Source: Tenacibaculum sp. SZ-18 (GTDB taxonomy: Bacteria; Bacteroidota; Bacteroidia; Flavobacteriales; Flavobacteriaceae). From it: a stretch of 64,000 bases of DNA. The stretch covers positions 2,153,777 to 2,217,776 of the forward strand of contig NZ_CP019335.1 of assembly GCF_002813915.1 (NCBI RefSeq). Reading direction: 5' to 3'. The notes below the pieces were generated by a model. That model was not told the DNA's origin and did not search any database. It was given only the letters and a program-made list of their open reading frames with translations. Of the stretch, positions 33,331 to 36,085 are shown piece by piece. How positions within the stretch are numbered: the first letter of the stretch is position 1; every line of letters begins with the position of its first letter. The position numbers were made by a program, and so were the translations under genes.

Positions 33331-33377
33331 ATCTTCTATAACCTTTATTAAATAAAAGCTTTGATGACTTTAATATA

Positions 33378-33413
33378 TTTTTATTACTATAACTATAGTC
33401 ATAGTAATAAAAA
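33378..33413. promoter_or_regulatory. Near-perfect 36-bp palindrome, predicted BlaI operator
   Basis: The arms TTATTACTAT (33381-33390) and ATAGTAATAA (33401-33410) flank an inner ACTATAGT. The symmetry continues for three more A/T pairs outward, with only one mismatched pair (33391 against 33400). It overlaps the region upstream of the -7 element and lies 16 bp before the BlaI start codon, so it is a strong candidate for autoregulation by this repressor. Confidence 0.75.
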
Positions 33414-33417
33414 AACA

Positions 33418-33425
33418 TATATTTG
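33418..33425 (+). promoter_or_regulatory. -7 element of the BlaI/M56-M23 operon
   Basis: TATATTTG is a perfect TAnnTTTG. Only four bases separate it from the ATG at 33430, so the transcript would be leaderless or almost so. Confidence 0.55.
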
Positions 33426-33429
33426 CCTT

Positions 33430-33813
33430 ATGAATAAGTTAACCAAACCCGAAGAACAAATAATGCAGTTTATATGGAAGTTAAAAAAAGCTTTCTTAAA
33501 AGATATTGTTGAACAATTTCCTGAACCAAAGCCTGCTTACACGACCATCTCCACTGTTGTTCGTGTATTAGTAAAGAAAAAGTTTCTCGATTATAAAACC
33601 TTTGGCAAAACCCGAGAATATTATCCTTTAGTAAGCAAGAAAAAATATTTTTCTGAATACATGAATGATATCATCTTTAGTTTCTTTAACGGTTCATCTG
33701 GTAAATTCGCTTCATATTTCACCAAAAATGAAGATTTGAATTTATCTGAATTAGAAGAAATTAAAGATCTAATTGAAAAAAAAATAGAAAATATAAAAAA
33801 GGAAAATGGATAA
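33430..33813 (+). CDS. BlaI/MecI/CopY-type transcriptional repressor
   Basis: Winged-helix repressor of 127 aa. The N-terminal DNA-binding domain reads LTKPEEQIMQFIWKLKKAF and PAYTTISTVVRVLVKKKFLD, a typical BlaI recognition helix region. The C-terminus forms the dimer helices. ATG 33430 is chosen from the family start (MNKLTKPEEQ); a longer frame from 33361 would run through the operator. In BlaI/BlaR1 systems the membrane M56 peptidase triggers cleavage of the repressor. Here the next gene, overlapping by 8 bp, is such a peptidase. The palindrome 16 bp upstream is the likely operator. Confidence 0.92.
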   Translation: MNKLTKPEEQIMQFIWKLKKAFLKDIVEQFPEPKPAYTTISTVVRVLVKKKFLDYKTFGKTREYYPLVSKKKYFSEYMNDIIFSFFNGSSGKFASYFTKNEDLNLSELEEIKDLIEKKIENIKKENG

Positions 33814-35113
33814 TTCTCTTATCATATTTATTATCAAAGTCAGTATTGTTTTTAGTACACTTTATGGGACTTATAAATTCATTTTAAGCAATACAACTTT
33901 CCACAAATTAAATAGAATAGTATTACTTCTGATTATTCCATTTTCCTTTATTATTGGAATAATCGAAACTTCTATTCCCATTCAAACTCAAAATATAGAA
34001 ATTCCTGCCTTTGTTGAATTAGCTAATGTTACTAGTAATAATGCACAGATAATTAATAATTCGCGCATCTATTCCCATGAAATAAACCTTATTACTATCA
34101 TTACTTCCATATACCTTTTGGGGATTATATTTTTTTTATCTAAGATCATATTTTCCGCTCATAAATTATTGGTCCTTAAACGGAATTCAGAAGTAATTAA
34201 AAAGGAATCATACAAATTGATACTTACGAATACACCAGTATATTTTGCCTTTTTTAACTGGATATTTATTCCTTTGAAATATAAATGTAACTTGAATAAA
34301 ATCATCATCCAACATGAAAAAAGTCATGTAGAATTTAAACATACCTATGATCTAATTTTTACAGAGTTATTTATTGCACTCTTCTGGTTTAATCCACTAG
34401 TCTATTTATACAGAAAATCCCTAAAAACAATTCATGAATATCAAGTTGATCGAAACTTAGTAGAAGATCACAACATTAATATTATAGATTATTTAAACCT
34501 AATACGAGAAGAAATAGAAAACACAACTAAACCATATTTGTATAGCTACTTCGGTAATTCAAACCTTAAAAAACGTATTCATATGATAACAACATCTAAA
34601 ACTCATAAAAATCATAAATTAAAATATTTAGCTATTGTACCTATAATGCTATTATTTCTAGTCTCATTTACGAAGGCTGATGTTTTGTTTCCAGTTATTG
34701 AGAAATTAAAAAATGAAAAGCCATCGATTTCACCTATTAAAAACACAACGAAAAAGGATATAACAGCGAAATATGGACCAATGAAACACCCAATATTAAA
34801 ATCACTTCGTCATCATGATGGTATTGATATAAAAGCAAAAATAGGAACTCCGATAATCGCTACTGCTGATGGAATAATTTCTAGTGCCTCGTATGAAGGA
34901 AACTGGGGTAATCTAGTTATTATTAAACATAAAAACGGATATCAAACGCTTTATTCACATTTAAGTAAATTCAATTGTGAGAAAGATCAAAAAGTCGAAC
35001 AAGGACAAATTATTGGTTATTCTGGAGTAACTGGAATGGTTACTGGTCCTCATTTACATTATGCAATTAAACACAACGGGAACTTTGTAAATCCAATTAA
35101 TTTTATGGATTAA
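33806..35113 (+). CDS. BlaR1-type M56 membrane peptidase fused to an M23 peptidase domain
   Basis: Protein of 435 aa with two peptidase domains. The N-terminal part has several membrane helices and a cytoplasmic M56 gluzincin site, HEKSH at residues 170-174 (HExxH). A further helix (KYLAIVPIMLLFLVSFTKA) then leads to a periplasmic C-terminal M23 domain. This holds all expected zinc ligands: HDGID (His337, Asp341) and HLH (His416, His418), within PIIATADGII and NLVIIKHKNGYQTLYSHLSK contexts. Classical BlaR1 has a penicillin-binding sensor at this position. The protein would therefore sense or cut peptidoglycan and signal to BlaI. It overlaps the blaI-type gene by 8 bp. Confidence 0.9.
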   Translation: MDNSLIIFIIKVSIVFSTLYGTYKFILSNTTFHKLNRIVLLLIIPFSFIIGIIETSIPIQTQNIEIPAFVELANVTSNNAQIINNSRIYSHEINLITIITSIYLLGIIFFLSKIIFSAHKLLVLKRNSEVIKKESYKLILTNTPVYFAFFNWIFIPLKYKCNLNKIIIQHEKSHVEFKHTYDLIFTELFIALFWFNPLVYLYRKSLKTIHEYQVDRNLVEDHNINIIDYLNLIREEIENTTKPYLYSYFGNSNLKKRIHMITTSKTHKNHKLKYLAIVPIMLLFLVSFTKADVLFPVIEKLKNEKPSISPIKNTTKKDITAKYGPMKHPILKSLRHHDGIDIKAKIGTPIIATADGIISSASYEGNWGNLVIIKHKNGYQTLYSHLSKFNCEKDQKVEQGQIIGYSGVTGMVTGPHLHYAIKHNGNFVNPINFMD

Positions 35114-35176: not shown

Positions 35177-36085
35177 ATGAAACATTTACAGAGAACCATT
35201 TTGGTATCTTTATTACTACTAATATTTCGTAACGGATATGGGCAAGATTTTAGCAAGAATTTAATCCATTTACCTAACATAATTAACAAGTATAAAAAAC
35301 AATCAGCTAAAATTAAAAAGCAAAAAGATAGTCTAAGTAACATTCATTTTGCTCGTAATTGGGACACTATTCATTTTAATCCATATCGTTCTACAAAAGT
35401 TTCTTTTCCTTTCGAAATTAATTTTCTTGACACAACTTACGCGTCTCCAATTCCACGTAAACATGTTGTAACATCTAGATATGGTTGGCGCAGAGGAAGA
35501 GCGCATCGTGGAATTGATATAGATCTAATTACTGGTGATGATGTATATAGTGTTTTAGACGGAAAGGTTCGGTATGTTGGTTATCATCCAGGACATGGAA
35601 AAACGATTGTTGTGCGACATTATAATGGTTTAGAAACTGTTTATGCTCATTTATCTAAATACGATGTAACGGTAAATACAATTGTAAAAAAAGGTGAACT
35701 CATCGGCAAAGGTGGTAATACAGGAAGATCACGCGGAAGTCATTTACACTTAGAAATACGTTATAGTGGTATTGATATAAACCCTGAACATATTTTTAAT
35801 TTCAAGAATAAAACAACCATACGATCAAAAAATATTTGGGTAACGGAAGATTGGGCTACTCCTTATTATCATATTTCAACAAGACAAAGTGATCTCGTTA
35901 CTCTAGATACTTTTGAAAAAGTTACGGCATACAAAAAAAGGAAACGTAAAGTTTACATCGTAAAACGAGGAGACACATTATCCGAAATTGCTTATAAAAA
36001 TCATGTACCTATTCGTAGGATTTGCAAGACAAATAAAATTAGAAAGACATCTACTTTAAAAATAGGTCAACGTCTAATTCTTTAG
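35177..36085 (+). CDS. Secreted M23 peptidase with C-terminal LysM domain
   Basis: Exported murein endopeptidase of 302 aa. A signal peptide (ILVSLLLLIFRNGYG) precedes a linker and an M23 domain. Zinc ligands are seen in RAHRGIDIDL (HxGxD) and GSHLHLEIRY (HxH), with VVRHYNGLETVYAHLSKYD between. The last 45 residues form a LysM peptidoglycan-binding domain (YIVKRGDTLSEIAYKNHVP and LKIGQRLIL). It lies 63 bp after the M56-M23 gene and is probably the third member of the same regulatory unit, acting on cell-wall peptides. Confidence 0.93.
   Translation: MKHLQRTILVSLLLLIFRNGYGQDFSKNLIHLPNIINKYKKQSAKIKKQKDSLSNIHFARNWDTIHFNPYRSTKVSFPFEINFLDTTYASPIPRKHVVTSRYGWRRGRAHRGIDIDLITGDDVYSVLDGKVRYVGYHPGHGKTIVVRHYNGLETVYAHLSKYDVTVNTIVKKGELIGKGGNTGRSRGSHLHLEIRYSGIDINPEHIFNFKNKTTIRSKNIWVTEDWATPYYHISTRQSDLVTLDTFEKVTAYKKRKRKVYIVKRGDTLSEIAYKNHVPIRRICKTNKIRKTSTLKIGQRLIL

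Follow-up and report, generated by a model that had tools for sequence, protein, structure and literature searches.

An M56-M23 fusion receptor paired with a BlaI-type repressor at the head of a putative cell-wall-enzyme operon in Tenacibaculum

Transmembrane sensing of the peptidoglycan state is a poorly understood process, most of all in Bacteroidota; in this phylum, pairs of M56 proteases and BlaI-type repressors are common and, to our knowledge, mostly lack known inducers. One such pair, encoded in a 64,000-nucleotide stretch of the Tenacibaculum sp. SZ-18 genome (termed the window), raises the question of what a BlaR1-type receptor senses once an M23 peptidase domain occupies the place of its penicillin sensor. 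With moderate confidence, we propose that this protein is a BlaR1-like receptor that uses a periplasmic peptidoglycan endopeptidase module to lift the repression that BlaI exerts on the receptor's own wall-remodelling operon. As the sensor slot holds a recognizable wall enzyme and the putatively regulated genes also encode wall enzymes, the ligand, output and operator can be guessed, so that the whole circuit lends itself to reconstruction and testing in a laboratory host.

Architecture and active sites of the receptor

Pfam analysis assigned exactly two domains to the receptor, an M56 peptidase domain (PF05569, E-value of 1.9e-12, 47.4 bits against a cut-off of 31) and an M23 peptidase domain (PF01551, 1.4e-33, 115 bits against a cut-off of 28.7), which place it in both families, and no transpeptidase or penicillin-binding domain (Table 1). 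The reading frame, its forward strand and its two domains are those that an earlier note, made from the sequence alone, had described as a BlaR1-type M56 peptidase fused to an M23 peptidase. The RefSeq label for such proteins may be “M23/M56 family metallopeptidase”.

Table 1. Features of the window and the triple fusion of a relative; positions are those of the window unless a locus is named.
Feature	Position	Strand	Size or residues	Remarks
Predicted BlaI operator ATTACTATAACTATAGTCATAGTAAT	33383..33408	.	26 bp	near-perfect palindrome; two overlapping ACTAT-N4-ATAGT boxes
Bacteroidota-type -7 element TATATTTG (TAnnTTTG)	33418..33425	+		9 bp after operator
blaI-type repressor (Penicillinase_R)	33430..33813	+	127 aa	PF03965, 5.8e-27; matches MecI and BlaI structures
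M56-M23 fusion receptor	33806..35113	+	435 aa	8-bp overlap with blaI
Peptidase_M56 domain	33866..34588	+	aa 21-261	Pfam and alignment to BlaR1 (8exp)
Peptidase_M23 domain	34811..35095	+	aa 336-430	Pfam
M23-LysM protein	35177..36085	+	302 aa	63 bp downstream of receptor gene, co-directional
Triple fusion M56-M23-Amidase_3	L113:4031-5905		625 aa	membrane signalling protease with two different wall-cutting domains

The hydrophobicity profile of the receptor indicates four transmembrane helices (TM1 ~4-22, TM2 ~35-53, TM3 ~93-111 and TM4 ~277-295), and the HExxH motif lies in a K/R-rich stretch (residues 119-271) between TM3 and TM4, as in BlaR1. Given this arrangement, the M23 domain, which follows TM4, should sit on the outer side of the membrane. 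Only a short linker joins the M23 domain to TM4, and it may restrict how far the domain reaches into the wall. The outer loop (residues 58-94) that connects TM2 with TM3 possesses an I-E-[IV]-P-x-F-like motif (residues 64-69), in which Pro67 is present in 19/19 fusions of the main clade described below and the remaining loop is variable; this motif is a candidate contact with the M23 domain. Structure prediction of the receptor together with one relative by AlphaFold2 gave a pLDDT of 33, and the model was set aside.

The M56 catalytic set comprises His170-Glu171-x-x-His174 (HEKSH, residues 170-174), Glu211 and Asp215, and the M23 set comprises His337, Asp341, His385, His416 and His418. By analogy with LytM, we take His337, Asp341 and His418 to be the zinc ligands and His385 and His416 to be catalytic. 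The earlier note had named His337 and His416 together; both residues are present, but their roles are distinct, one being a zinc ligand and the other a catalytic histidine. Whole-genome searches in Bacteroidota yielded 23 M56-M23 fusions, and all ten of these residues are identical in 23/23. The proposal that a periplasmic M23 domain with all its zinc ligands replaces the penicillin sensor thus holds at the sequence level. The nearest named relative of the receptor belongs to a Tenacibaculum MAG and is 87% identical; comparison with this relative gave dN/dS values of 0.15 for M56, 0.17 for M23, 0.03 for BlaI and 0.06 for the M23-LysM protein. Being intact in 23 homologues and under purifying selection, the fusion is not a product of chance.

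The M56 region of the receptor aligns end to end with that of BlaR1 (8exp), with an E-value of 4.8e-14. The residues Phe284 (the autocleavage P1' residue), Arg294 and Asp246, which have been shown or argued to be important in BlaR1 (PMC9834060), correspond to Phe249, Arg257 and Asp215 of the receptor and are invariant in 22 aligned M56 domains; the autocleavage-loop site Tyr248-Phe249 as a whole is invariant in the 19 main-clade fusions. In contrast to BlaR1, the Asp210 position is occupied by His179, with an aspartate (Asp182) three residues later, both of which are invariant among the fusions. For the M23 domain, the best-matching models and solved relatives include peptidoglycan DD-endopeptidases.

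The M23 domain might instead be a peptidoglycan-binding sensor in which catalysis is optional, so that M56 is gated by binding of substrate or product and cutting plays no part in signalling; the sensor of BlaR1, too, has an enzyme fold that serves for binding, and an extracellular loop competes for its active site (PMC9834060). We regard this as unlikely, as fusions from more than one clade share all five M23 residues without exception, the two non-ligand histidines among them. Enzyme-derived sensors often lose some of their catalytic residues.

BlaI partner, operator and downstream wall enzymes

The blaI-like neighbour expected by the earlier note indeed overlaps the receptor gene, and blaI accompanies the fusions at every locus where the contig extends far enough. 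Alignment of homologues supports the start of blaI given in Table 1; the listed open reading frame starts too early, at 33361. Judged from its sequence, this gene resembles blaI and mecI in both its Penicillinase_R domain and the palindromic putative operator at its own promoter. The scissile bond of MecI, Asn101-Phe102, aligns with Tyr96-Phe97 in the BlaI of the window, where Phe97 is invariant in 7/7 sequences and the P1 residue is Tyr or Phe rather than Asn. Both the autocleavage-loop site of the receptor and the candidate site of BlaI read Ser-Tyr-Phe in the window, a resemblance that would fit one protease acting on two substrates.

The ACTAT-N4-ATAGT box, allowing at most one mismatch, lies no more than 110 bp from the start of blaI at 22/22 fusion loci and is exact at 19 of them, compared to a mean of 0.4 of 22 loci, and a maximum of 3, in mononucleotide shuffles. 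The boxes mostly come in pairs whose starts are separated by 20 bp or, as in the window, by 6 bp, and most relatives have the -7 element at a position of about -12 relative to the ATG. Whole-genome pattern searches located the box pair only at the blaI promoter, together with one lone box elsewhere, about as many as in the reversed-pattern control, and revealed no wider BlaI regulon in this genome; since a single promoter carries the pair, BlaI most likely controls one operon. The same genome encodes two further M56 proteins without an M23 domain (L001, G000:C1:436676-437515 in a 929-aa frame; L003, 571173-572048 in a 494-aa frame), and as the box pair was not found at either gene, the operators there must differ.

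The M23-LysM protein is likely the operon partner of the receptor and a hydrolase, and the window cassette is flanked by rsmD and, convergently, by bshC. An operon survey covered the main clade, namely the 19 loci on the M56 tree plus two close relatives. In 18 of these 21 members, peptidoglycan-directed enzymes (M23-LysM, polysaccharide deacetylase or Amidase_3) are encoded downstream on the same strand, and some of the operons also encode an OMP_b-brl_3 outer-membrane protein. By contrast, none of the three enzyme types was found in the ~4-5 kb read at 20 control loci of unfused M56 genes, 19 of which have blaI in that stretch; the Fisher test, comparing the first 19 loci with these controls, gave p = 3e-9, a value to be read with the reservation that the fusions form one clade and are not independent events. 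The four fusions outside the main clade have no adjacent wall enzyme. Among 59 genomes of the genus, the fusion is present in 8, and the M23-LysM gene in 5, all among those 8 and in none of the other 51.

In G012, the operon order is blaI, M56-M23-Amidase_3 (625 aa), OMP, deacetylase and M23-LysM, whereas in G420 Amidase_3 is encoded by a separate gene that directly follows the receptor gene and has its own signal-peptide-like start. This fusion or fission of Amidase_3 is the best evidence linking the receptor to wall cutting. The OMP_b-brl_3 protein (~797 aa) lies between receptor and deacetylase at three loci (L095:5509-7902, L113:6000-8390 and L094:807-3200 on the minus strand).

These operons might also suggest that the M23 domain is a membrane-tethered output enzyme, merely one more product of the operon, with M56 responding to something else, such as the state of the membrane or its own outer loop. 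Separate hydrolases are already present in the operon, and the amidase added to the same chain in G012 has the look of an effector assembly; however, M23 sits exactly at the sensor position of BlaR1 and is found fused to M56 receptors from several lineages, which makes this role improbable in our view. Under the proposal of M23 as the sensor module, the receptor, which sits with the repressor at the head of a wall-enzyme operon, probably couples the production of those enzymes to the state of the wall.

Distribution and history of the fusions

Fusions are present in at least about 15 of 397 genomes of the family and, among 395 genomes of the phylum, in at least one that belongs to a different order; both counts are lower bounds, as four candidates were scored per genome. 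In the window and in L004, G035, G377 and G747, the cassette lies between rsmD and bshC, and in other genomes it stands at other loci; within the genus, 28 of the 30 rsmD loci that were read have neither blaI nor a fusion adjacent. A plasmid search returned no clear fusion; one unannotated match covered 86% at 27% identity and ended at residue 394.

On the M56 tree, 19 fusions form one clade (SH-aLRT 99), whereas L105-L107, which have long tails, and L109, from another order, are placed among unfused receptors. The hypothesis that all fusions arose only once was rejected on this tree (AU test, p = 0.001, or p = 0.002 without the long-branched L109), and the M23 domain was either acquired repeatedly or lost repeatedly. 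On the M23 tree, the fused domains group with ordinary M23 proteins of ~330 aa; derivation from the downstream M23-LysM protein was rejected, as the five LysM-type domains of downstream genes on this tree form a separate branch (SH-aLRT 100). The three long-tailed fusions outside the main clade (L105:4026-6890, L106:4046-6196 and L107:1427-3481 on the minus strand) carry tails of ~260-530 aa that have no Pfam match, and the tails of L105 and L106 end in a TonB-plug-like motif, VLKGxxAxKxYGxxxKNGV.

Proposed circuit and comparison with known systems

The domains, intact active sites, operator, gene order and co-inheritance are established as features of the sequences; from them we infer BlaI cleavage, hydrolase activity, the trigger with its sign, and a single transcript. 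In the proposed circuit, the M23 domain outside the inner membrane would engage peptidoglycan cross-links, most likely cutting them as a DD-endopeptidase; as in BlaR1, the four-helix M56 module would relay this engagement, or its loss. Its cytoplasmic gluzincin part would then cleave the co-encoded BlaI, probably at Tyr96-Phe97, and free the operator just upstream of the -7 element, which would switch on blaI, the receptor gene and the downstream wall enzymes, in the window M23-LysM. Because the outer domain should bind and cut stem-peptide cross-links, the triggering event is probably a change in the available peptidoglycan substrate. A more specific version, which we offer only tentatively, is that the rate at which M23 turns over cross-links sets the M56 output, so that cross-linking would be measured by cutting it and answered, in a self-reinforcing loop, with more wall enzymes. 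The term “damage circuit” used in the earlier note is one reading of such a system, which might equally serve remodelling linked to growth or respond to foreign peptidoglycan.

Two further explanations depart from direct signalling by the M23 domain. Similar to what was proposed for B. licheniformis, the main route of BlaI release might be peptidoglycan fragments that the M23 hydrolases help to generate and that reach the cytoplasm; in support, binding of gamma-D-Glu-mDAP to BlaI/MecI causes the repressor to dissociate from its DNA (PMC3305447). We consider this very improbable: the affinity is millimolar, an M23 DD-endopeptidase does not itself yield the gamma-D-Glu-mDAP dipeptide, and later work showed that BlaR1 by itself is sufficient for direct BlaI cleavage (PMC9834060). 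That the receptor still serves beta-lactam resistance, sensing the drug by another surface, is hardly credible despite its M56-BlaI ancestry, given the missing transpeptidase or penicillin-binding domain and a Pfam scan of operon genes that detected no beta-lactamase or PBP domain.

In the literature, an M23 review mentions the pair of M23 and M56 in passing, and it puts M23 proteins with any second catalytic domain at <1% of M23 entries and describes a role of M56 in wall cleavage as not demonstrated (PMC9662197). Within the literature library searched, this remark was the only mention of the pair, and no study of its operon, operator or function came up.

Among known systems, the 20 control receptors of Bacteroidota with other C-terminal tails share BlaI and the M56 membrane protease with the fusions; however, the M23 domain and a downstream wall-enzyme gene are absent in 20/20. 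The M23 domain resembles the endopeptidases of the ShyA, MepM and NMB0315 type, which have all ligands and are its best profile matches, whereas those enzymes are secreted or anchored, possess regulatory domains and are unlinked to a signalling protease. The closest parallel for the whole receptor is given by BlaR1/MecR1-BlaI/MecI of Staphylococcus and Bacillus, with which it shares a four-helix M56 membrane gluzincin (HExxH...E) with conserved signalling residues, including the autocleavage-loop Phe and the Arg294 equivalent, as well as an adjoining BlaI and a palindromic putative operator at its own promoter. The extracellular penicillin-binding sensor is absent, and the NCBIfam BlaR1 model scored 23.9 bits, far below its cut-off of 400; in place of the penicillin-acylated sensor domain stands an intact M23 endopeptidase domain, and the genes downstream encode wall enzymes rather than beta-lactamase or PBP2a. 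Altogether, the M56-M23 receptor is a real and well-conserved protein of the BlaR1-BlaI kind with a new putative sensor module.
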